Source: Gracilimonas sp.
GTDB lineage: Bacteria; Bacteroidota; Rhodothermia; Balneolales; Balneolaceae
Direction: 5' to 3'
NCBI RefSeq assembly: GCF_040218225.1
Contig: NZ_JAVJQO010000002.1
Span: 372,001 to 436,000 of the forward strand
Length of the DNA stretch: 64,000 bases
In this document: in pieces, positions 38,461-51,390 of the stretch
Layout: each line of letters begins with the position of its first letter
Position numbering within the stretch: the first letter of the stretch is position 1
Position numbers and translations under genes: made by a program
Notes under the pieces: model-generated
What the model was told of the DNA's origin: nothing
Database searches by the model: none
Seen by the model: the letters and a program-made list of their open reading frames with translations, nothing else

Positions 38461-40992
38461 TTACTTCACAACCAGATTCACAATCTTCCCGGGCACAAAT
38501 ATTTCCTTCACCAAATTACCATCCGCTAAGTATTTGGCTACGTTTTCTTCTTCTTTTGCCAAGCCAAGCACGTAGTCTTTATCTTTCGCTTTATCGGCAT
38601 CTACTTCGATATCAGCCCGGACTTTCCCATTTACCTGAACCGGATAGGTAATAGAATCGGCCTTCAGGTATTCTTCATTGAATTGTGGCCAGTCTTCATA
38701 TGCAAGAGTATTTTCATGTCCTAACATTTTCCATAGCTCTTCTGTGATATGAGGAGCAAAAGGATTCAGAATCTGAATGAATTCTTCAGCCACAGACAAT
38801 GGAATTTCATCCCAGCCATTGGCTTCATTCACAAAAATCATGAGCGCTGAAATAGCCGTATTGAACCTCAGGCTTTCGATATCTTCACTGACTTTTTTGA
38901 TAGCTTCATGCAGCGGCTTCAAATGCTTTTTCTCTGCCTGAATATCTCTAACCTTTTCTGATATTTCTCCAGAATCTTCATCCACCAGCAAGCGCCAAAC
39001 ACGATTCAGGAATCGGTTCACCCCTTCCACGCCTTTCGTACTCCAGGGTTTTACCTGCTCCAGAGGTCCCATAAACATTTCATACAATCGAAGAGAATCG
39101 GCGCCGTACTGGGCAATGATATTATCCGGGTTGATCACATTGCCACGGCTTTTCGACATTTTATGGGCACGGGCTTCTACTTTGGTATCGGTACCTCTTA
39201 GAACAAAGCCCTCTCCCTTCTTCTCCACTTTGTCTTCGGCGATCTTTTTACCATCCGGACCGGTGAATTCCATCTCACCTAAAATCATCCCTTGATTTAC
39301 CAGTTTCTGAAATGGCTCCTTGGTTGAAACCACTCCAATATCGTACAGCACTTTATGCCAGAAACGGGCATACAACAAGTGCAGGACCGCATGTTCAGCT
39401 CCACCCACATACAGGTCAACAGGCATCCAGTACTTTTCGTAATCAGGATCTACCGGACCACCATCAAAATCAGGACTAATGTATCGCAGGTAATACCAGC
39501 AAGAACCAGCCCACTGAGGCATTGTGTTGGTTTCGCGAATTGCTGTTTTTCCGGTCTCAGGATCAGTGGTTTCCACCCAGTTTTTTGCATTGGCCAGTGG
39601 TGGCTCTCCATCACCTGTTGGCTGGTATTTATCAACCTCAGGAAGCTCTATGGGTAATTCAGATTCCGGAAGTGGTTTGGGTTTACCATCCACATGAATA
39701 ATCGGAAAGGGTTCACCCCAATAACGCTGACGTGAGAACAACCAGTCGCGCAGTTTATAATTCACCGACTTTGTTCCAGCCCCTTTATCCTCCAGCCAGG
39801 TAATAATCTTTTTCTTGGCTTCCTTGATGTTCAATCCATTCAGGAAATCACTATTGATAGCCGCGCCCTCACCCGTATAAGCTTTCCCTTCAAATCCTTC
39901 TTCAGGCTGAACCGTTCGTACAATTTCCAGATCAAATTTTTCTGCAAATTCCCAGTCCCGCTCGTCCTGCCCGGGAACCGCCATAATAGCACCGGTGCCG
40001 TAACTGTCCAGCACATAGTCGGCAATCCAGATGGGAATTTCTTTTCCATTGGCAGGATTGATGGCGTAAGCACCGGTAAAAGCTCCTGTTTTTTCCTTGT
40101 TCAGTTCCTGACGCTCCAGGTCTGATTTCTTGGCTGCTTTTTCTTTGTACTCAGCAATCGATTCTTGTTGTTCCTCAGTGGTAATTTTATCAACCAAATG
40201 GTGCTCGGGTGCCATTACCATATAAGTAGCTCCGAAAATCGTATCCGGGCGTGTTGTAAAAACTTTCAGCTTGTCTTCATACCCGGAAATCTCAAAGTCA
40301 ATTTCAGCACCCACCGACTTCCCGATCCAGTTTCGCTGCATTTCTTTCAGAGACTCCGGCCAGTCCAGTTCTTCGAGATCCTGTAATAACTCTTCTGCGT
40401 ATTCTGTGATCTTGAGTACCCATTGACGCATTGGCTTACGGATAACCGGAAATCCTCCAACTTCACTTTTTCCGTCAATCACTTCTTCGTTTGCCAGTAC
40501 CGTTCCCAATTCCGGGCACCAGTTTACAGCAACTTCATCTTCATACGCCAACCCTTTTTCATAGAGCTTCAGGAAAATCCACTGCGTCCACTTATAATAA
40601 TCCGGATCAGTTGTATTCACTTCCCGATCCCAATCATAGCTAAAACCAATTGCTTGCAGCTGTTCGCGAAATTTATTCACGTTTTTCTCTGTGGTAATCC
40701 GTGGATGAGTACCCGTCTTTACCGCATACTGCTCGGCCGGCAATCCAAATGCATCCCAGCCAATTGGATGAAGTACGTTAAAGCCTTTCATCCTTTTATA
40801 ACGGGCAATGATATCAGTGGCTGTATATCCTTCCGGGTGCCCCACGTGCAGCCCCGCCCCACTCGGATAAGGGAACATATCCAGTACATAATACTTGGGG
40901 TTGGATTTATCGGTGGGCGTTTCAAAGGTTTTATTTTCGAGCCAGTACTTTTGCCATTTGGACTCGATGTCGGCCGGATTGTAAGAGTGCAT
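38461..40992 (-). CDS. leuS: Leucyl-tRNA synthetase
   Basis: Class I synthetase charging tRNA-Leu; 843 residues. HIGH motif is present as HVGH (49-52) within [17 protein letters not shown], the CP1 editing domain follows ([19 protein letters not shown]), and KMSKS is at about 611-615 in [13 protein letters not shown]. The anticodon-binding helical region and C-terminal domain with [13 protein letters not shown] complete it. All expected parts are present. It stands alone and converges with gltA. Confidence 0.98.
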
Positions 40993-41189: not shown

Positions 41190-41604
41190 TTACCTCGATT
41201 TTTTGGGATGCCTTGGGTTTCCTTTATGACCCTCATCCTTGAACTTATTATTATAAATTCTTTTGAATTCCAGGCTTCGGGCACCAAAATTTATCAGCAG
41301 ACCAACTTCTAAATTATATGCTTCAAGGTAATTCATAGCCTGTGATAAATGGACATCCTGTAATTCAATAACAGCTTTAAGCTCGACAGAAATCACATTG
41401 TTAATCAAAAAATCTACTCTTCGGCTCCCGATAATAATATCCCTGTAGAACATTTCGACTTCTCTGGCAAATTCTATTTTTTGCAGGTCCATTTCATATG
41501 TCATAGCACGCTGATATAAAAACTTCCTGAAAACCATTGCCTAGTTCAGAATGAACCTTCATGGCTCATCCAATTATTTGATGAGTTATTTCTCCATATT
41601 TCAT
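41190..41604 (-). pseudogene. Degraded GxxExxY gene (nonsense mutation plus frameshift)
   Basis: Reading the minus strand from the ATG at 41604, the expected family start appears (KYGEITHQIIG), then a TGA at 41568-41566 replaces what is normally a Cys codon in IIGCAMKVHSELG. The frame continues AMKVHSELGNGFQEV, then one extra base in the five-T run opposite 41518-41522 shifts the frame; the rest continues in the next frame as LYQRAMTYEMDL ... SVELKAV ... QAMNYLEAYNLEVGLLINFGA to a stop at 41190. Two independent lesions in a recognisable gene point to a pseudogene. An open part (41537-41190) could still be read but lacks the GxxExxY motif. The intact relative is at 9588-9959. Confidence 0.88.
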
Positions 41605-41809: not shown

Positions 41810-43531
41810 ATGCAAAAATCACTGCTGACCTTTTTAACCATTCTCTTGTTTTTTTCTTTTCAATATGAAATAGAAGCTCAACCTTCTTCCTCTCCTATTG
41901 AAGATGCTATAATTGTTTATCAGGAAGACCACGGGGCATTATCCAGGAAGTATTCTGTGGAGTCTTCCGAACAATATTTCATCCGCTTTGAGGAATTCTA
42001 CACCCAATGGTTGGGCTATCTTGATGATACAGACTTTCAGGGATTAACCCATTCCCAGCAAGTGGACTACCTGCTTTTCAAGAATGATGTGGAACGGTCT
42101 TTATATTTCCTGCAGGCCGATTTTAAGCGTTTTAATGACGTTTCAGAACGCATCCCTTCAAGAACAGAAATGATGGACTTTATCACCCAGCGCAGATCTG
42201 GTACTTCCATGGAAGGTAAAACAGTCGCTGCACGGTTCAATGAATGGAATTACAAAACTCAGAAGCTTCTCAAAGATCTCGAGCAAACACCTAAACTATC
42301 CAAGCAGAATGCAGGATTTGTAGCCGGGGTTATCAAAGAAAGACGGGAAGCTATAACCGAAGCTTATGAGTTTTATTACGGTTATGATCCCGATTTTAGC
42401 TGGTGGGTGGAAGAGCCTTTTAAAGCTCTCACTTCCTCTCTCGAAGAATATGGGCAAGCGATTGCTGAACACTACAATCAAAATCCGAAAGACGATGATG
42501 GTTCCGGGATCATTGGCAACCCCATTGGCGAAGATGAAATTAACCGCCGTTTAGGCTTTGAGATGATCTCCTACACTCCTCAGGAGCTTATTGATATTGC
42601 CAACGAGCAGTATGCGTGGACCTACAACGAAATGCTTAAAGCCTCCCGGGAACTCGGTTATGGCGATAACTGGAAAGCGGCTTTGGAATACGTAAAGACA
42701 ACTCATGTACCGGCCGGTGAGCAGCCACCGTTAGTTAAAGACTTAGCCGAAGAAGCTATCACCTTTCTGGAAGACCGGGACCTGGTCTCCATTCCGCCTT
42801 TAGCCAAAGAAACCTGGCGCATGGTTATGCTGAGTCCTGAGTGGCAAAAAATAGCCCCTTTCTTTTTAGGAGGAGAAACCGTCCGGATTGCCTATCCCAC
42901 CAACACCATGACTCAAGAAGAAAAGATGATGAGCATGCGGGGGAATAATCCACACTTTTCCAAGGCAGTAGTCCATCATGAACTTATTCCCGGTCATCAC
43001 CTGCAGCAGTTTATGAACCGGCGATATGAAACTCATCGCCAGATGTTCAGAACTCCTTTTTGGACCGAAGGCTGGGCATTGTATTGGGAATTTGTGCTAT
43101 GGGAAAAAGACTTCCCAAACAACCCCGAAGATAAAATCGGGATGCTCTACTGGAGAATGCACCGTGCCGCCCGAATTGTCTTTTCGTTGAATTACCACCT
43201 TGGAAACTGGTCGCCCCAGGAATGTATTGATTACCTGGTGGATAAAGTGGGCCACGAATACGCCAATGCCGAAGCCGAAGTCCGCCGTTCTTTTGAAGGC
43301 AACTATGGTCCGTTATACCAAATCGCATATATGGTTGGCGCCATGCAGTTTTATTCGCTGCGACTGGAACAGGTGGAATCCGGCCAAATGACGGAAAAGG
43401 AATTCCATGATGCGATCCTCCAAAACGGGAGCATTCCGGTTGCTATGGTGAAAGCGTTGCTCACCAATCAGGAATTAAGCAAAGACTTTACATCCAACTG
43501 GAAGTTCGGAGATTACATTGAGGGGATGTGA
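41810..43531 (+). CDS. DUF885 family secreted metallopeptidase-like protein
   Basis: The 573-residue protein has a signal peptide ending IEAQ (about residue 24) and an all-helical body, with the motif VHHELIPGHHLQQF (388-401): H390-E391 and H396 give an HE-L-I-P-G-H zinc site as in DUF885, related to M32-type helical metallopeptidases. The second acidic block FWTEGWALYWEFV supplies the further Glu ligand and the later YLVDKVGHEYANAEAEVRRS completes the family pattern. It probably degrades peptides in the periplasm; the substrate is unknown. Monocistronic; an inverted repeat follows the stop. Confidence 0.9.
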   Translation: MQKSLLTFLTILLFFSFQYEIEAQPSSSPIEDAIIVYQEDHGALSRKYSVESSEQYFIRFEEFYTQWLGYLDDTDFQGLTHSQQVDYLLFKNDVERSLYFLQADFKRFNDVSERIPSRTEMMDFITQRRSGTSMEGKTVAARFNEWNYKTQKLLKDLEQTPKLSKQNAGFVAGVIKERREAITEAYEFYYGYDPDFSWWVEEPFKALTSSLEEYGQAIAEHYNQNPKDDDGSGIIGNPIGEDEINRRLGFEMISYTPQELIDIANEQYAWTYNEMLKASRELGYGDNWKAALEYVKTTHVPAGEQPPLVKDLAEEAITFLEDRDLVSIPPLAKETWRMVMLSPEWQKIAPFFLGGETVRIAYPTNTMTQEEKMMSMRGNNPHFSKAVVHHELIPGHHLQQFMNRRYETHRQMFRTPFWTEGWALYWEFVLWEKDFPNNPEDKIGMLYWRMHRAARIVFSLNYHLGNWSPQECIDYLVDKVGHEYANAEAEVRRSFEGNYGPLYQIAYMVGAMQFYSLRLEQVESGQMTEKEFHDAILQNGSIPVAMVKALLTNQELSKDFTSNWKFGDYIEGM

Positions 43532-43615: not shown

Positions 43616-43629
43616 TCGAGAATGAACAG
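43577..43629 (+). promoter_or_regulatory. Conserved 53-bp leader, copy 1
   Basis: Identical at 49 of 53 positions to 48600-48652. It includes TATTCTAAC, the palindrome TGAAATTTCA (43594-43603), ACTTCGTCG and the first codons ATGAACAG. The palindrome ends 18 bases before the ATG. Such conservation outside coding sequence points to a regulatory site or a recent duplication. Confidence 0.75.
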
Positions 43630-44626
43630 CAGCTGTCAGGTTCATAGGTCTTTTTTAGTGCTCATTTTTATGTTTTTGCTTTGCTCAGAAAACTTAAGAG
43701 CGCAACAACCAATTTCTCTTTCTGCATGGGTCAAAGTAGTTGCAGATCTAGATGAGTATTATGTAGTTATAGATAAAGATTTTGAAAATGCTCATTTAGT
43801 AAACCGGGGTGATAGTTTACAAGTTGAACCAGGTGTTCGGCATATAACTGTTGTTTGGAAAACGATCCATGATCAATCATTTACCACCCGTGCCAAGACT
43901 GGTAAAACTAACGAAATACGGGTCTATCATACCTTTCCGTCTTACCCAAGAAGTTCCCACGAAACTATTGCCAGACAAACAAATTTATTCATAGCCACAG
44001 ATGAAAATTCCGACGTTTACATTAATGGTGAATACTCTGGTAAACACCTGGTTAAAACCTTACTCAACCCAGGAACACATCAGCTACGCATAGAGCATCC
44101 TGATTTTGGTGTATTGGAAAAAAGAGTAGAAGTAAACAGTCAAAATATTACGAAAGTAGCTAGATTTAACGAAAATCCATCCACCCTTCCGTTTGCCATG
44201 AAATTGTTACCCGGAGCTGAATATATCGCTTCAAGAAGGTATAAACGAGCCACTATTACCTACCTGGGTTTAGGTTTATTGACAGCTAATCTGATAAGAC
44301 AGGATATGGCCTACTCAAAAAAACTAAGCAAGTACAACGAACTGGAAGTATTATATCAAAATGCTCAAACAAGCGAGGAAGCAATAATTCACAGAAGAAA
44401 TGCCCTCTCAGCAAAGAATAAACTAGATCAGATAAGTAATAATTTCAATCTAACTTTACTGATTAGCGGAGGGCTTTATTTAATTTCAACTTTAGATGCT
44501 TTTCGAAAACCAAAAAGCGGATATAGGCACCCATCCAATTTTTTTGGTGCAGATATGACACTTACAACAAGTTCTGTGGCTTCAAAGACTTCCGCCTTGC
44601 TATCACTAAAAATCGAACTTGATTAG
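43622..44626 (+). CDS. PEGA-like secreted membrane protein, module 1 (unknown family)
   Basis: The 334-residue protein has a signal peptide ending LRAQQ (about residue 28), then a PEGA-like beta region with DVYINGEYSGKHLVKTLLNPGTHQLRIEHPDFG (about 137-170, broken into shorter pieces elsewhere), then a membrane part: LPGAEYIASRRYKRATITYLGLGLL, a helical hairpin linker with YQNAQTSEEAIIHRRNALSA, and a second helix LTLLISGGLYLISTLDAF. This architecture recurs at 45358 and 48645. It resembles DUF5683-like proteins with PGAxQ-FY-x-R-x-x-K, but I cannot name a function. First gene of the cluster, with the conserved leader upstream; the lipoprotein partner starts 4 bases after the stop. Confidence 0.8.
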   Translation: MNSSCQVHRSFLVLIFMFLLCSENLRAQQPISLSAWVKVVADLDEYYVVIDKDFENAHLVNRGDSLQVEPGVRHITVVWKTIHDQSFTTRAKTGKTNEIRVYHTFPSYPRSSHETIARQTNLFIATDENSDVYINGEYSGKHLVKTLLNPGTHQLRIEHPDFGVLEKRVEVNSQNITKVARFNENPSTLPFAMKLLPGAEYIASRRYKRATITYLGLGLLTANLIRQDMAYSKKLSKYNELEVLYQNAQTSEEAIIHRRNALSAKNKLDQISNNFNLTLLISGGLYLISTLDAFRKPKSGYRHPSNFFGADMTLTTSSVASKTSALLSLKIELD

Positions 44627-44630
44627 TTCT

Positions 44631-45353
44631 ATGCCAAAAATTTCATCTTCATATCTAACTATCATCCTATTAAGCTGTTTGCTCTTCTTTAATTTTGGCT
44701 GTAAAAATAGTCCCACTTTTAATCATGATAATGAAAGAGATCCTTTGAGCTCAAGTTTTGAAGTACCTGAGCTAAATAGTTTTACTATTGATCCAAATTA
44801 TGTAAATGATAATCGTCTTAATGGTTTCAATCTAGGCTGGTCTATGCAGGAAAATGTCTATTTTGATGGTTTTACCTTACAACTTTACGATCCAGAATCT
44901 CAAGAATTTATTGATTATCAAACTTTTCCACCTTCTTCAAATTCTTTTTATGATACAAACAGAAGTCTCCCTTTAGACATTGTTTATCGCATAAAGTCAT
45001 TTATCAAAATTGGAAAGGATTCTTATCTATTTTCTGGTCCCTCAGAAGTATCCTATAAACAAAATGTCACTGAGATAGAAGCTTATTTTATTAATATTCG
45101 TGCCATCGAAGTAGTCTGGAATCATGATATCCAGAGTAGTATGCGACTAAAAATTGAGCGACAGATAAATGATGGCGAGTTTACACTTATTAGAGAACCA
45201 AGATCTGGTGTATACAGAAGAAGCTTTATCGATCAACTTGATCCAAACTTAGAGGATAAAATACGATATCGGGCATATGCCAGAACAAATTTTTCCGAAA
45301 CTGATACAGTGTACTCGGATACTATTAGTTTAATAAACTATACAATGAATTAG
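44631..45353 (+). CDS. Lipoprotein, module 1 (F-x-x-x-N-x-x-D-P motif)
   Basis: A 240-residue lipoprotein from the ATG at 44631 (an upstream TTG at 44619 would overlap the preceding stop). The signal ends FFNFGC-KNS. After the Cys comes the motif TFNHDNERDPLSSSFEVPE, shared in form with the lipoproteins at 46338 and 49654. The remainder is a fibronectin-III-like beta sandwich: GFNLGWSMQENVYFDGFTLQLYD and AIEVVWNHDIQSSMRLKIERQ. Probably surface- or periplasm-exposed. No catalytic motif. It lies between two PEGA-like genes, with a 4-base gap to the next. Confidence 0.78.
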   Translation: MPKISSSYLTIILLSCLLFFNFGCKNSPTFNHDNERDPLSSSFEVPELNSFTIDPNYVNDNRLNGFNLGWSMQENVYFDGFTLQLYDPESQEFIDYQTFPPSSNSFYDTNRSLPLDIVYRIKSFIKIGKDSYLFSGPSEVSYKQNVTEIEAYFINIRAIEVVWNHDIQSSMRLKIERQINDGEFTLIREPRSGVYRRSFIDQLDPNLEDKIRYRAYARTNFSETDTVYSDTISLINYTMN

Positions 45354-45357
45354 GTTT

Positions 45358-46335
45358 ATGACAAAATATCTATTTCTATTTCTTACTTTATTTTCAACCA
45401 CTTTATATGCCCAGAATAAAACGGGCTTTATAAAATTCGAATTCAATACTGATTCGGCCTACGTAATACCTGGAAACGATTTATTTGAAGCTGTTAAACT
45501 TGCTTCCGGAGACTCTCTCAAATTTACTGAAGGTACCCGACTGCTATCTTTTCAGACCTATTTCGATAAAAGTAAAACTCAATTCATAAAGGTAATCGGG
45601 GACTCCACTGTTATTTATTCTCATACCTTTGAAAAAAATGGTTTAAGTATCGCTGCACTTTCTGATAATATAGCCGCACGGGATTATTACAATGCAAATG
45701 CCATGATTCTTACCGATGAAGACTCTGAAATTTTTTTTGAGGGTAATTATGTCGGAACCGGATTCGCAAAGTTTAATACTTTTGGAAATATTGGAAAGCT
45801 GACCATCAAAAACCCTGATTTTGGTATTTCAGAAAGTCGATTAAATATCCCTGAACAAAAATTGATTTTTATCACCGACAAACTGAGGCCGAGTAAATCT
45901 GCCGCAAGATTCTTTTCTGTTTTTCCGGGAGCCAGCCAATTTTATAAAAGGCAGCATGTTAAGGCTCTTCTATTAGGGGCTTCTGCTGTAACAATATTCG
46001 CTGCCGCTGCACTAAAGTCTGCGAATTATAAAGAAGAACTGAGCTTATTTAAAGAATATCAGAATAATTATGAAAATGCAGAAACTGAGCAAATAGCTCT
46101 CCGTTTCGGTGATCTAGCTGAAAGTCAGCAATCTAAAGTCAAGAAGTTAGATAATCAGCGCCGCGGGTTATTATTAGCTGGTATTCTTATTTATGGATAT
46201 AATATCTACGATGCTTTTACAAGCAAACCTGCTGGCGGATACCTGAAGAAAAAAAGAGATTTTCAGTTTTATTTGTCGGAGCTGCCAATTTCCGGGAATA
46301 TTGGAGCAGCCGGAACTTTAAAGTATAATTTTTGA
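45358..46335 (+). CDS. PEGA-like secreted membrane protein, module 2
   Basis: This 325-residue paralogue of 43622 has a signal peptide ending LYAQNK (about residue 20) and PEGA-like segments with EIFFEGNYVGTGFAKFNTFG and KLTIKNPDFGISESRLNI. The membrane part reads FFSVFPGASQFYKRQHVKALLLGASA, then the linker YQNNYENAETEQIALRFGDL, RRGLLLAGILIYGYNIYDAF, and a C-terminal strand ending AGTLKYNF. The Phe end and beta pattern allow an outer-membrane insertion signal, but two helices suggest the inner membrane, so location is open. It follows the module 1 lipoprotein by 4 bases and has no leader copy of its own, so modules 1 and 2 are one transcription unit. Confidence 0.8.
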   Translation: MTKYLFLFLTLFSTTLYAQNKTGFIKFEFNTDSAYVIPGNDLFEAVKLASGDSLKFTEGTRLLSFQTYFDKSKTQFIKVIGDSTVIYSHTFEKNGLSIAALSDNIAARDYYNANAMILTDEDSEIFFEGNYVGTGFAKFNTFGNIGKLTIKNPDFGISESRLNIPEQKLIFITDKLRPSKSAARFFSVFPGASQFYKRQHVKALLLGASAVTIFAAAALKSANYKEELSLFKEYQNNYENAETEQIALRFGDLAESQQSKVKKLDNQRRGLLLAGILIYGYNIYDAFTSKPAGGYLKKKRDFQFYLSELPISGNIGAAGTLKYNF

Positions 46336-46337
46336 AC

Positions 46338-48518
46338 ATGAAGAGATTACTGCCCATACTTCTGTTTTCTATTTCCGCTGGTTTACTTTTATCAACTTGC
46401 AGCACCGGGCCTGATTTTGAAAGGGATAATAAAAATGATCCTGAGTCAAATGAATTCCTACCTGATACACCTTCAGGTGCCAACTTCAGTTTTAGCGTCG
46501 ATACGATAATAACTATTTCATGGGAAGATCAAACCCAGTTCGAAACTGGCTATAGAATTCACAAGAAAATTGGAGAAGTGTATAATAAACTGTTAACAAC
46601 ATTATCTCCTAATGCTGAACAGTTTGCTGACAGTACAAAAGAATTTGGTTTTCCAACAACCTATTTAGTTACAGCAGAAAAGAATAGTTCAACTTCTGAC
46701 TCTTTAACAATTGAAATAGACTTTGGAAATATAGAAGACTTGAATTCTTCTTTAAAGATTCGAACAAATAATCAGTCTGAAATCAACTTAGAATGGATCG
46801 ATAACATTTATTTTGAAGATGGTTTTTTCCTTATGAAAGTTTTAAATCAAGGTAGTGCTGAAAAAACTCTTAAAGTACTTGATGCAAATCTCGAAAAAAC
46901 TTCAATTCCTCTTCCAAACGATAGCTTTATTCATGAATTTAAAATTGTACCATTTAAGATTTTCAAAAATGATACAACAATACTTGCTCTTGAAAACTCC
47001 ACGACTTTTTCTTTAGCACCAAAAAACCTCGATATGAAACTAATATCTGAGGATTCCCTACTATTCACATGGGATTTTGATGCAGATTTTCATGATGAAT
47101 TTTTATTAGAACTTGAAACTGAAGTTGAGACTAAAGAATTTAAAGTAAATAAAAACAAGACTGAACTGAAAATAAATCTGGATGTTAACCGTGACTTTGA
47201 GTACAAAGCAAATCTATCAGCTTCAATAGGAAATTTAAATAGTCCTAAGGTCTCTACTTCCAGAAGATTTGAATTACCATCTATTCGAATTGATAGTATT
47301 GGACATGTCTCTGAATCTGAAATACTCATACGCACTAGTAATCCATCAAGCACACACCTAGTTAAGCATGTTTACAGAAGCACTGGTTTGTCAAATAATT
47401 TTTCTAAAGTAGGTGAAATTCCCAAAGGCGAAAATGAATTTTATGATACCAACCTCAACAAAAATAATATCTATACTTATTACATATCTACGAAACTATC
47501 CGATGAGTCATCTCAAATTTCAGTTAGCAATAGAAAAGGACTCAGGGTCCTCAAGTCATTTACATTAGAAAAACAGGTTAAATTTTTATCTCAAAATAGA
47601 ATTAATAAAAAAAATCTTTCTCACTCTTTTTTAGCATCAGATTTTAACTCAAGAGAGCTTTTACAAATAGACTATTTGACCAATGAACAAGTACCAGTAT
47701 TTGACTATGACTTTTATGCTATAGAGTTTGCACTACACTCCGATCAAAATATAATTGCAACGCTGAGAGGTACTGAAACAGAAATAGGTTTGCACCTTTT
47801 CAACAATAATAAAAGCATATTAATCGATTCGGTAAGTTCAGGAAGTTCTACCATCCGCAACATAGATTTTGTGGACGATAGAATATTCTATTTAATCAGA
47901 AGAGAAAATTATCATTGGAGGTTAATGGCATCTTCTTTAAATGGAGTTCAAAAAGATACCTTACTAGTGTTTACTTCAGAAAATGAAGATCCATCATTTG
48001 TTGTTAGTCGCGATAAGAGTGAGCTTTATTTAATTAAAAACACAAGTTATAATGAATTCCAACTTTCAAATTATAGTGTTTCTGAATCTAGATCAAGGTT
48101 ACAAGAAACTACTACCATCAATACATATCCGATTGATTTCTCACCTACTTTGGATTCATTAATCATATCCAGGGCCCAATACAACGTAACTGTTATTGAT
48201 GTAAACACTAATAAATCATTGTTTTCTGAAGAATTTTCATTTTATAATAGTAATAGCCTGGGTCAATCTTTTTTCTTTGGGGATGGATTACTTTATGTCC
48301 CGGATCAGGCGAGTGCTTATATTATTGATTCACGAAATACATCAGATCCGATACTTCAAACCATAGGGTTTAAATGTTGTAGTATATCTTTTGCAGGTGC
48401 TTTTTGGAACTACAAAACTCAGCATCTTATAGATATGCGAAGGTCACATACTTCCGGCATTCCAGATTTTTATACGGTTTACAAATTGGAATCTTTCTGG
48501 AGAATATTAGAGGAATAA
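46338..48518 (+). CDS. Large lipoprotein, module 2, with C-terminal propeller-like region
   Basis: Counting from the ATG at 46338 (a TTG at 46332 overlaps the previous stop), the product is 726 residues. The lipoprotein signal ends LLLSTC-STG, followed by the shared motif DFERDNKNDPESNEFLPDTP. Residues up to about 330 contain three FN3-like repeats (TISWEDQTQFETGYRIHKK, INLEWIDNIYFEDGFF, LLFTWDFDADFHDEFLLEL). The rest, about 400 residues, is absent from the partner lipoproteins and looks like a beta-propeller (SFLASDFNSRELLQIDYL, LYLIKNTSYNEFQLSNY, LLYVPDQASAYIIDSR). Function is unknown. Confidence 0.75.
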   Translation: MKRLLPILLFSISAGLLLSTCSTGPDFERDNKNDPESNEFLPDTPSGANFSFSVDTIITISWEDQTQFETGYRIHKKIGEVYNKLLTTLSPNAEQFADSTKEFGFPTTYLVTAEKNSSTSDSLTIEIDFGNIEDLNSSLKIRTNNQSEINLEWIDNIYFEDGFFLMKVLNQGSAEKTLKVLDANLEKTSIPLPNDSFIHEFKIVPFKIFKNDTTILALENSTTFSLAPKNLDMKLISEDSLLFTWDFDADFHDEFLLELETEVETKEFKVNKNKTELKINLDVNRDFEYKANLSASIGNLNSPKVSTSRRFELPSIRIDSIGHVSESEILIRTSNPSSTHLVKHVYRSTGLSNNFSKVGEIPKGENEFYDTNLNKNNIYTYYISTKLSDESSQISVSNRKGLRVLKSFTLEKQVKFLSQNRINKKNLSHSFLASDFNSRELLQIDYLTNEQVPVFDYDFYAIEFALHSDQNIIATLRGTETEIGLHLFNNNKSILIDSVSSGSSTIRNIDFVDDRIFYLIRRENYHWRLMASSLNGVQKDTLLVFTSENEDPSFVVSRDKSELYLIKNTSYNEFQLSNYSVSESRSRLQETTTINTYPIDFSPTLDSLIISRAQYNVTVIDVNTNKSLFSEEFSFYNSNSLGQSFFFGDGLLYVPDQASAYIIDSRNTSDPILQTIGFKCCSISFAGAFWNYKTQHLIDMRRSHTSGIPDFYTVYKLESFWRILEE

Positions 48519-48599
48519 ACTTTGTGGTTTATCAGTTTTTCTGAACGTTGCTGAGATTAATTTTCCAACATTTTTATCAAGAAATTCAATTTATAAACC

Positions 48600-48652
48600 G
48601 AATTTACTATTCTAACTGAAACTTCAAGAATTACTTCGTCGCAAATGAACAG
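48600..48652 (+). promoter_or_regulatory. Conserved 53-bp leader, copy 2
   Basis: Second copy of the module leader (see 43577-43629): four mismatches in 53 bases. The palindrome here is TGAAACTTCA (48617-48626), conserved in the outer TGAA..TTCA, again 18 bases before the ATG of module 3. The left arm of the large inverted repeat seen in copy 1 is missing. Confidence 0.75.
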
Positions 48653-49643
48653 TCGTTTTTATGTTCAGATAACTTTTTTCTCTATTCTTCTTTTTTTGTG
48701 TTTGCCCCTCTCGTCCGTTTTTGCACAGACACAAGGTGGAAGCGGCAGTATTTATTTTTCATTTAATGTAGATACCGCTTTTGTCCAATTTGGGATAAAT
48801 AAAACTACCATACAAAAAGTAGCTAATAATGATACTCTCGTAGTAAAAAACGGATTTTATCACCTTCACCTGTCTTACCCAACCAATGAAGATGTATACC
48901 TCACATTAAATGTGTTGAAAGATTCTTTATACGAGGTTTCTCATGAGTTTGACCTGAATAAAAATAGTATCGACTTGAACAGTAAGAATGCTTCAATCCG
49001 ATACTTAATCGGTGGAGACCTTGTTGCTTTGAGTGATTCTAATACTAAAATCAAACTTGAAGATTCAACAATAGGCGAAGAATTTGCTATAATCGATTTA
49101 GAAAAAAATTCTGCACAAAAGCTTTCTTTTCAGAACCCAGAATATTTTTCCAAGCACTTTCAGGTTTCCCAAGACGAATCCGTCATATTTAAAGAACATT
49201 ACTTCCATTCTGAAAACCAGTCCGTCACCTTTCTTGAATTCATTCCAAGTATCTCTCAGTTCAAAAGAAAAGAATATGTCAAAACAGGTCTTATACTTGG
49301 TTCACTGATTGCTTCCACTTCTTTTTTCTTAAAGTTTCAAAATAAATTCAGTGATAAAAAAGCAGAGTATTTATCTATTCGCAAGCAGTACCTTAATGCT
49401 GATACCGAAAGCCAGGCACTGTTATTGGGGGATCTAATGACTGAAAAAGCTGAAAAACTAAAACCTCATAACTTGAGGCGTAATTTATCTCTGTTAGGAG
49501 TTTTAGCTGTTCTGGGATTTGATGTTTATGATAAAATAAGATACAAGCAGAAAGTTAGCCCTCCGGATCAGAAAAAATTTGAACTGCTACTCGAACCTAA
49601 TTTTGAGCAGTACATCTCAATCGGTGCTACTTTGAAACTTTGA
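48645..49643 (+). CDS. PEGA-like secreted membrane protein, module 3
   Basis: Third paralogue, 332 residues, signal peptide ending VFAQT (about residue 28). The PEGA-like region is more degenerate (KIKLEDSTIGEEFAIIDLE, KLSFQNPEYFSKHF). The membrane part is well kept: FIPSISQFKRKEYVKTGLILGSL, the linker RKQYLNADTESQALLLGDLMTEKAEKL, and RRNLSLLGVLAVLGFDVYDKI, with a C-terminal SIGATLKL strand. It has its own copy of the conserved leader and so probably its own promoter. The lipoprotein partner starts 10 bases after the stop. Confidence 0.8.
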   Translation: MNSRFYVQITFFSILLFLCLPLSSVFAQTQGGSGSIYFSFNVDTAFVQFGINKTTIQKVANNDTLVVKNGFYHLHLSYPTNEDVYLTLNVLKDSLYEVSHEFDLNKNSIDLNSKNASIRYLIGGDLVALSDSNTKIKLEDSTIGEEFAIIDLEKNSAQKLSFQNPEYFSKHFQVSQDESVIFKEHYFHSENQSVTFLEFIPSISQFKRKEYVKTGLILGSLIASTSFFLKFQNKFSDKKAEYLSIRKQYLNADTESQALLLGDLMTEKAEKLKPHNLRRNLSLLGVLAVLGFDVYDKIRYKQKVSPPDQKKFELLLEPNFEQYISIGATLKL

Positions 49644-49653
49644 AAGGCTCTAA

Positions 49654-50325
49654 ATGAAACATTCAACTTTCTTACTTATCATATTATTCCTTAATGGCTG
49701 CATTATAGGTTCAGAATATGAACGTACAAATTCTCTCGATCCTGATTCACCCAAATTTAAGGCTGATTTTTCTGACCCAGAAGCCATTTTAAAATTAGAT
49801 GACCGCGCCTTTCAAATTCAGTGGATAAGCAGGTCTAGCTTTGATGATGGGCACCTTATTGAAAAAAAGTTGAACAATAAATTTTTCACGCTGGACACTT
49901 TATTATCAGAAAGCTTCTATATGGATTCGTCAGGTGAGTACACAACTGATATGGAGTACAAAATCTCATCTTTTAGGTTTGATGAGAAAGGGAATATCAA
50001 AAACAAGTTTTCAAAAAAGATTAAAAAAATAAATTTCGGGAATGTTAGAAGTCTCACCGCTTTTAGAAATAATGACTCATTATCAATTCAATGGTTTAGG
50101 AATAGCTTTTTGGACGACCTCACAATTTTAGAGTTCAGAAGTGATAATGATGAAAATTGGAATGAACTTTATTCTGAAAATCAGCAAAGAGACACCTTCA
50201 GAAGAATAACTTTTGACCTTCCGCTTGATCAAAGCTACGAATTCCGAATCAGGCTTTTCATGGATAACTATAAGCATGAACAAGAAGAATTCTACAGCGA
50301 TACCATTTACTACGACAACATGTAA
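49654..50325 (+). CDS. Lipoprotein, module 3 (F-x-x-x-N-x-x-D-P-like motif)
   Basis: A 223-residue lipoprotein, signal ending LFLNGC-IIG, followed by the shared post-lipobox motif EYERTNSLDPDSPKFKADF. The rest gives two FN3-like repeats: AFQIQWISRSSFDDGHLIEKKL and SLSIQWFRNSFLDDLTILEFR. It is the shortest of the three lipoproteins and the last gene of the cluster. It converges with the LuxC-like gene after 9 bases. Function unknown. Confidence 0.78.
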   Translation: MKHSTFLLIILFLNGCIIGSEYERTNSLDPDSPKFKADFSDPEAILKLDDRAFQIQWISRSSFDDGHLIEKKLNNKFFTLDTLLSESFYMDSSGEYTTDMEYKISSFRFDEKGNIKNKFSKKIKKINFGNVRSLTAFRNNDSLSIQWFRNSFLDDLTILEFRSDNDENWNELYSENQQRDTFRRITFDLPLDQSYEFRIRLFMDNYKHEQEEFYSDTIYYDNM

Positions 50326-50334
50326 ATTTTACTA

Positions 50335-51390
50335 TTATTTGATTAGTCCATTAACCAAATCCATCCCATCCGGTTTCCACCACAGATTAGGTCGTTGGGC
50401 ATTGGCAAGCTTCTCTGTCTCGATCCCCTTAATCTCTCCACCAACAGTGTAAACCGATTGCACCTTCTTCCCGAACAGAGCTTTTAACTCCCTGACTTTT
50501 TCCTCTCCTCCATTTACCCAGTTCACCGTAAAATCAGTATCCGGGAGTTCATCTGTTTCCTGGATTAAAAAATCTCCCAGCCAAATCTGATTTCTCTGAA
50601 TAGCTTTGTTGTAGGCATATTGATATTCCAAAACTGGGGCCGGTTGCTGATATTGAGGGTTTTCTTTCCAGAATTCATGAATACCATCCATCAACTCTTC
50701 TTTGACCTGATTCAAGGTAAATTCAGCAACTACTACCGCTACTGATCGGCATCCTTTCCCGCCATATCTTAACGTGGCTTCAACCAAATCTCTTTTTACT
50801 TCTTCATTCCAGTCATTGAGGTAAGCAATGGAGAACTTGGCGGTGCGGATGATGTACTTCGCCTCTTCTCCTGAAGCATTCAGCTTCAGCACTTTTTCTT
50901 CTACTTCAGGAACCGATTCTTCTGACCCTGCAAAAACAACTTTATCTGCCTGCAGATTCTGGAAGTCATTCAATTCTGTGGAATATTGTACTTCCTGACC
51001 AAAACCTGCTTTTTTCATGATATCCAGAAAGGATTTCAGTAAGTAAGGATCTTTACGCGAGAGCTTGCCATGATAATCAGCGCCGGAAAGCAGGGTTCCC
51101 AAAGCAGTTTGAAATCCCACCAAGGGCAAATTTCCTGCATGAAGGCAGAGCACTTTTGTACCTTTGGCATTTTTCTGATCGTTCAACCCTGAACGCTCGG
51201 CCCATTCTTCAATTTCATTATTTCTGATGCTCTCTCTTAAAACTGAGAGCTGAAACTCAATGTCTTGTTTACTGAAGAGTCCTTCATCCACCGTTTTCCT
51301 AACTGCTTCCTGTAAAGATGTATTTACTGGATCCAGCCATTCCCCGGTCACTTTTCTGATTTGATCGATATGTTTATCAATCCAGCTCAA
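50335..51390 (-). CDS. LuxC-like acyl-CoA/acyl-protein reductase
   Basis: Fatty acid reductase of the LuxC family, an aldehyde-dehydrogenase-like protein that reduces an acyl group to the aldehyde with NADPH. The 351 residues are shorter than bioluminescent LuxC (about 480). The nucleophile is C214 in RYGGKGCRSV, and LCLHAGNLPLVGFQTALGTLLSG gives the cofactor-side loop. It is preceded by a LuxE-like gene whose stop overlaps its start (ATGA), so the two act together. No luxAB or luxD is nearby and light production is not implied. The aldehyde or alcohol could be for lipids or pigments; unknown. Confidence 0.85.
   Translation of the reverse strand: MSWIDKHIDQIRKVTGEWLDPVNTSLQEAVRKTVDEGLFSKQDIEFQLSVLRESIRNNEIEEWAERSGLNDQKNAKGTKVLCLHAGNLPLVGFQTALGTLLSGADYHGKLSRKDPYLLKSFLDIMKKAGFGQEVQYSTELNDFQNLQADKVVFAGSEESVPEVEEKVLKLNASGEEAKYIIRTAKFSIAYLNDWNEEVKRDLVEATLRYGGKGCRSVAVVVAEFTLNQVKEELMDGIHEFWKENPQYQQPAPVLEYQYAYNKAIQRNQIWLGDFLIQETDELPDTDFTVNWVNGGEEKVRELKALFGKKVQSVYTVGGEIKGIETEKLANAQRPNLWWKPDGMDLVNGLIK

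Follow-up and report, generated by a model that had tools for sequence, protein, structure and literature searches.

Linked genes for a DUF5683 membrane protein and a hypervariable lipoprotein, a candidate recognition system of the cell envelope in Gracilimonas and related bacteria

Three consecutive gene pairs were found on the + strand of a 64,000-nucleotide stretch of Gracilimonas sp. DNA (the window; assembly GCF_040218225.1, contig NZ_JAVJQO010000002.1, positions 372,001 to 436,000), each consisting of a gene for a putative membrane protein (M) followed by a gene for a lipoprotein (L). All six genes of these pairs, M_a/L_a, M_b/L_b and M_c/L_c (Table 1), lie where the initial annotation had placed them. 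The pair is real and goes beyond chance: M and L are linked across genomes, a motif behind the lipid cysteine of L is specific for M-adjacent lipoproteins and co-varies with M, and the remainder of L has been replaced and recombined. With odds only slightly better than even (about 0.52), the pair is a two-gene envelope complex in which M is a conserved membrane platform for the docking of a polymorphic, probably ligand-recognising L.

According to this model M would be the constant platform, exposing periplasmic PEGA-like domains on a membrane hairpin formed by the DUF5683 domain. L would be anchored by its lipid and would dock to M via the approximately 20 residues right behind the lipid cysteine. 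Its distal part, made up of fibronectin type III (FN3)-like repeats and a WD40-like propeller, or of a Fib_succ_major-like domain in one lineage, would then be the recognition part, presumably exposed at the cell surface and diversified by allelic replacement and intragenic recombination with preservation of the docking motif. Several pairs in one cell would provide several recognition specificities. Recognition of a ligand, a phage, a predator or a neighbour may be what drives the diversity of L, and the gene pairs look like an undescribed variable recognition system of the cell envelope.

Linkage of M and L

The genome of the window contains five full M genes, each followed by a lipoprotein with the motif, and a sixth, weak M match (E 0.008). 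A profile built from 30 M-adjacent lipoprotein heads (A6) retrieved from this whole genome exactly five lipoproteins (E 4e-12 to 3e-7), all located behind the five M genes; the next match had an E of 0.35. This rules out a merely generic post-lipobox motif, a possibility that the initial annotation had raised. Across 244 genomes of the class, A6 gave 43 matches (E 0.001) in 24 genomes. Sorted by hand, 35 of these were directly behind M, five within an M cluster (four tandem L, plus the cluster of genome G110 with divergent M and L) and three without adjoining M. In a comparison made by hand, a motif match was present in 23 of the 27 genomes with an M (best E <1e-15) and in one of the 217 others. 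Because A6 was made from M-adjacent lipoproteins, the recovery of those is partly built in and the scarcity of other matches is the informative part. Among the matches outside its training heads were L_a, L076, L023 b and, at both L027 and L061, the second L (three-digit L numbers denote loci).

Linkage was also counted from the side of M, using the loci of all class matches listed at E <1e-15 (54 open reading frames (ORFs), which with the three window M makes 57; eight weaker matches, L030, L087-L092 and L094, were excluded). L was directly downstream in 46/57 (42 by script, L083 by eye and the three in the window), with a gap of -4 to +17 bases in 31 of the 42 gaps measured by script. The remaining 11 M were followed by another M (six), lay at contig ends (two), had a divergent L (one) or were without L (two). 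Among the weaker matches, a lipoprotein whose head resembles the motif to a varying degree stands behind L088, L089, L091 and L092, but none does behind L030 and L094; L087 and L090 fitted neither group clearly. Thus the linkage recurs in varying copy number across the class, as had been predicted, and the genes are not unlinked elsewhere. Of two profile scans of genome contigs the first (P0003) gave no match, and the second five loci, of which the one in Cytobacillus matched by chance.

Outside the class, 18 of 29 match places were examined. Six of these (L116-L119, L121, L122) showed an M and behind it an L whose head resembles the motif; no such L was present at L115 and L120, and at L123-L125 lipoproteins lacking the motif followed. 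The other seven were genes matching the DUF5683 part alone (L128-L134). Together with L095-L100 these form a control of 13 genes, none of which had a motif lipoprotein behind it; L128 and L129 were followed by a 136-residue lipoprotein lacking the motif. Nine of the 13 adjoin what we take, from sequence, to be parA/parB. By eye, short DUF5683 genes stand directly after parB at L096, L097, L099, L100, L130, L131, L133 and L134. This short parB-linked form of DUF5683 (PF18935) resembles M in having the same hairpin domain and strands at the C-terminus, where the last residue is often aromatic, but no PEGA-like part was matched in it and no motif lipoprotein lies behind it. At L096-L100 the C-termini, often strands with an aromatic last residue, somewhat resemble the outer-membrane beta signal.

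Hypervariability of L and co-variation of its motif with M

L is hypervariable. Compared with genome G001, identity is 96, 93 and 95% for LeuS, PurD and TpiA of the window, 69-85% for another four flanking proteins and 81% for a lipoprotein that by eye is thioredoxin-like. It is 66% for M_b, 46% for M_a and 28% for both L_b and L_a; shuffled L_b gave 24.2% with a standard deviation of 1.9. The L_b of G004 shares its first 31-49 residues alone with five other L_b, although its M_b has 63-72% identity to the M_b of G000 and of G001. Among 17 M pairs of at least 40% identity, the L bodies were undetectably related in four. The window M_b groups with G001 (121 sites versus 16 and 24), the window L_b with G013 (138 versus 63 and 60). 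With G006 this discordance was weaker (111 versus 77 and 67), and with G015 it was absent (86 versus 82 and 67). Within-gene recombination in the window L_b was not significant against more distant relatives (235, 61 and 1809 of 2000 permutations); the discordance there is one of the M gene as a whole with the L gene as a whole.

The L genes of a different genus of the family (G027, G030, G031, G033) are mosaics made by recombination, in which blocks of 80-98% identity lie beside blocks of about 25% and the partner differs from block to block. A single history was rejected in 4/4 tested L triplets (0/1000 permutations each). For a protein encoded nearby, identity is 98-99% among the three genomes of this genus that were compared; M is 92% identical between G027 and G030 and 40-41% to G031. 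A kept head combined with a replaced body suggests that the envelope of these little-studied bacteria is under diversifying pressure, and the variability of L offers a way to learn what they recognise or escape from. The earlier suggestion that each pair has different partners or ligands would fit such hypervariable bodies.

The relation between motif and M was quantified in 33 of 38 pairs, those with an L of at least 330 residues, using 2000 within-genome permutations. Similarity of the motif tracked similarity of M with an r of 0.49, which was reached in 0/2000 permutations (mean 0.12, maximum 0.482); over all 38 pairs the value was 0.42 (0/2000). For the 123 residues after the motif it was 0.33 (7/2000). 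The motif tracked M better than the C-terminus of L did (bootstrap difference 0.04 to 0.45). Split by region of M, the nominal r of the motif was 0.39, 0.39 and 0.30 for the DUF5683 parts, 0.33 for the second beta domain and 0.24 for the C-terminus, as against 0.14 for the first beta domain and 0.01 for the signal peptide. Whole-protein nearest neighbours agreed in 15/38 pairs (permuted mean 6.7, maximum 16, 2000 permutations).

Domains of M and L and alternative readings

M_a and M_b are homologous (30% over 303 columns, E 1e-23), as are M_b and M_c (31% over 291 columns, E 4e-26). In Pfam, M_a matched PEGA (2.3e-8) and DUF5683 (1.1e-6), M_b matched DUF5683 (1.1e-6) and not PEGA, both passing the DUF5683 cut-off, and M_c by itself gave DUF5683 at 0.034, under the family cut-off, and no PEGA. 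DUF5683 (PF18935) matched 17/17 M of a wider set (A3) at E up to 0.1 (best 8.7e-12), and PEGA (PF08308) 5/17. Of the common architecture claimed at the outset, the sequence Y-x-N-A-x-T-x-x-x-A is present in all three M. The P-x-x-x-x-F block is found in M_b and M_c and fails in M_a, which has P-G-A-E-Y-I instead, and a curated PEGA match exists for M_a only; M_b and M_c are called PEGA-like because of their alignment and, for M_b, its predicted beta domains. The predicted fold of M_b (8 sequences; mean pLDDT, the predicted local distance difference test, 70.6; pTM, the predicted template modelling score, 0.36) has beta regions at 22-90 and 115-173, helices of 40 and 45 residues at 200-239 and 244-288 and a low-confidence C-terminal beta hairpin. 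The two helices are likely to be a membrane hairpin. A sequence search for solved relatives of M and an NCBIfam search each gave one chance-level match (E 0.39 in the former), and a fold search gave weak matches alone, including transthyretin/carboxypeptidase-regulatory-like pieces.

The N-terminus of M is variable. At L116 it bears two PEGA domains, and at L115 (4331-6532) and L121 (4611-6644) a caspase domain precedes PEGA and a Pfam-matched DUF5683; behind the L121 protein, but not behind that of L115, lies a lipoprotein whose head is motif-like. The protein at L093 (6601-9189), with an N-terminal caspase domain before six PEGA stretches, matches the M model and, like that of L121, has such a lipoprotein behind it. 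Pfam DUF5683 was unmatched in three remote M-like proteins (L091, L092, L093). The one at L092 (5013-8016), in the genome of the window, has 679 residues and three PEGA stretches; it is followed by a very long ORF and by a lipoprotein whose head is divergent, and a comparable order was seen at L091, L126 and L127. Tentatively, the pairs may belong to an undescribed, phylum-wide class of polymorphic recognition systems of the envelope in which DUF5683 docks lipoproteins by their constant N-x-x-D-P heads, the bodies are shuffled between strains and the hairpin relays binding through the membrane to a caspase-like domain that some lineages have within M; such shuffling would liken them to allorecognition or phage-receptor loci. 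Many genomes of the phylum encode DUF5683, to which Pfam assigns no function, and a short specific partner motif would give it a testable one.

The motif F/Y-x-R/H-x-N-x-x-D-P-x-S-x-x-F is present in L_a, L_b and L_c, as had been claimed, at about +7 to +20 after the lipid cysteine. Homology between L_b and L_c spans 152 columns (E 3e-9), and L_a matches the two only weakly (E 0.044 and 0.006). The FN3-like repeats also claimed for these proteins gave no Pfam FN3 match in the three window L; in a set of 16 L proteins (A4) five score FN3 at E 0.1 and several score as WD40-like or Kelch propellers. Some relatives score FN3 plus a WD40-like propeller, which L_b itself does not. One L of the set matches the solved chains WRAP-T (E 6e-9) and 'WD-40 repeat protein' (E 5e-5), the WRAP-T chains presumably being designed propellers. 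At L028 (7536-9302) the L body behind a long M ends in a Fib_succ_major-like domain (E 9e-5, under the family cut-off), and by eye that at L029 (10397-13216), also behind a long M, ends in the same way, which indicates that the class of L body domain is swapped. Structure prediction of L_b gave a mean pLDDT of 45 (7 sequences).

Several observations weigh against the docking of a polymorphic L on M. Strict 1:1 pairing is broken by runs of M before one L and by tandem L behind one M, and two M genes have no L nearby. Three motif lipoproteins (G053, G027:C3, G054:C1) are without adjoining M, G053 having no M at all at E 1e-6, and A6, itself built from M-adjacent lipoproteins, misses three M-adjacent heads outside its set (L027 first, L062 first and L073 10409). 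The C-terminus of L (last 123 residues) also tracks M (r 0.24, 0/2000), and the 123 post-motif residues are not significantly better at this than the C-terminus (-0.14 to 0.31). The regions of M compared for their nominal correlation with the motif differ in length. Finally, the putative membrane helices of M are weakly hydrophobic (mean hydropathy 1.27 and 1.37; 56 proteins, crude automatic picks).

The three motif lipoproteins without M sit behind a long ORF. At the apparently equivalent place in the genome of the window (L021, judged by its neighbours), a protein with lamin-tail repeats and a type IX signal domain is followed by a 207-residue ORF and then by M and L. In L107, L108, L109 and L021 a long ORF precedes L throughout, and M is present in L021 alone.

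A rather doubtful alternative is that M is specialised in targeting its client lipoprotein or displaying it at the surface, the motif being the export signal of this client and the diversity of the L body incidental to M. The adjacency of M and a conserved N-terminal signal beside a fast-changing body would agree with this, and so does the finding that Slam (DUF560) genes display the lipoprotein clients encoded next to them (PMC5449769). However, M is predicted to consist of beta domains and a helical hairpin rather than a beta-barrel, and L persists without adjoining M in the three places described above. No Slam/DUF560 Pfam match was found in the window M, the M_b model showing two long helices and beta domains without sign of a barrel. 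Predicted Slam clients share an eight-stranded barrel domain (PMC5449769), whereas the L bodies are of the FN3/propeller type and are replaced. The Bacteroidetes lipoprotein export signal similarly places conserved residues right behind the lipid cysteine, namely a polar or basic residue and then acidic residues at +2 to +6 (PMC5080379); two adjacent acidic residues at +2 to +6 occurred in 0/38 L heads. Lipoproteins targeted by diversity-generating retroelements (PMC4159848) have variable bodies too, of the Fib_succ_major type that one L lineage resembles, but the diversity of L lies in recombined blocks. RVT_1 was not found at E 1e-5 in G000, G001, G027, G030 and G031 (template repeats were not searched), and G033 has two on contigs other than that of its pair. 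Retroelement-driven diversity is thus not supported, no reverse transcriptase being present in 5/6 genomes searched. Slam clients, export signals and retroelement targets parallel single features of the pair only.

It is unlikely that the pair is a structural envelope linker, with PEGA directed to the peptidoglycan, L in the outer membrane and a weakly constrained L body. PEGA has been listed among peptidoglycan-associating domains (PMC7159879), M evolves fast too, and PG1058, a propeller lipoprotein at the periplasmic face of the outer membrane, is a component and proposed scaffold of the type IX secretion system (PMC5053529). PG1058 combines its propeller with a carboxypeptidase-regulatory-like domain, a fold weakly resembled by pieces of M, but it is one protein with TPR and OmpA_C (PMC5053529), and neither gave a Pfam match in the two proteins of the window pairs. 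Weak constraint leaves unexplained why highly similar and dissimilar blocks (80-98% and about 25%) alternate within one L gene and why long open frames are retained.

Propeller and FN3 domains frequently bind ligands, which would also suit a nutrient-binding L with a membrane partner in a SusD-like role. This we consider very improbable: no transporter was seen to recur beside the pair in the gene tables read, which were not searched systematically, and a TonB-receptor-like gene (by eye) adjoins one dispersed locus on the opposite strand. Chance adjacency combined with a generic motif is hardly credible in view of the specificity of A6 in the genome and class, the 46/57 downstream linkage and the 13 control genes, even though comparable N-x-x-D starts are found where L families follow M genes that are more distant.

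No known anti-phage defence system was matched, PADLOC-DB giving 0 families at E 0.01 for the six window proteins. The M-L pair was undescribed in the titles and abstract openings listed by literature searches covering few subscription journals, and the one match found for DUF5683 appears by its title to be unrelated.

The three pairs and their site

The site lies between a gene at 38461..40992 (-), presumably that of leucyl-tRNA synthetase (LeuS), and one for a LuxC-like protein. It was compared in nine genomes selected for lacking pairs there. LuxC adjoins LeuS in G002 and G053; DUF885 plus at most one small ORF lies between them in G005, G007, G008 and G034, and a 1211-residue ORF in G028. 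In G003 and G014 LeuS was outside the examined 8 kb. Each window M is nearer to an M of another genome than to the neighbouring window M (normalised scores 0.61 for M_a to G004, 0.68 for M_b to G001 and 0.35 for M_c to G029; M_c to M_b 0.16). Because the nearest kin of M are in other genomes and the site is pair-free in six relatives, a recent local tandem duplication is not supported as the origin, nor is the amplification by duplication that had been proposed. The three pairs look instead like old lineages that have come and gone at a single site. Their six genes are within the seven lowest in guanine-plus-cytosine content of 40 ORFs of at least 200 residues.

Table 1. The three gene pairs and adjoining genes in the window (domain limits of M_a taken from its alignment to M_b)
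Feature	Position	Strand	Description
M_a	43622..44626	+	334 aa; signal peptide, then two PEGA-like beta domains, the helical hairpin of DUF5683 and strands at the C-terminus
L_a	44619 (TTG) or 44631 (ATG)..45353	+	lipoprotein, 244 aa; motif CKNSPTFNHDNERDPLSSSF; short body
M_b	45358..46335	+	325 aa; architecture as M_a
L_b	46332 (TTG) or 46338 (ATG)..48518	+	lipoprotein, 728 aa total; motif CSTGPDFERDNKNDPESNEF; long body
M_c	48645..49643	+	332 aa; diverged member of M family
L_c	49654..50325	+	lipoprotein, 223 aa; motif CIIGSEYERTNSLDPDSPKF; short body
DUF885 protein	41810..43531	+	left flank of site in some genomes
LuxC-like acyl-CoA reductase	50335..51390	-	right flank of site

A 115-residue ORF at 41190-41537 resembles, by eye, a shortened form of the 125-residue protein at the equivalent place in L023 (13925-14302).

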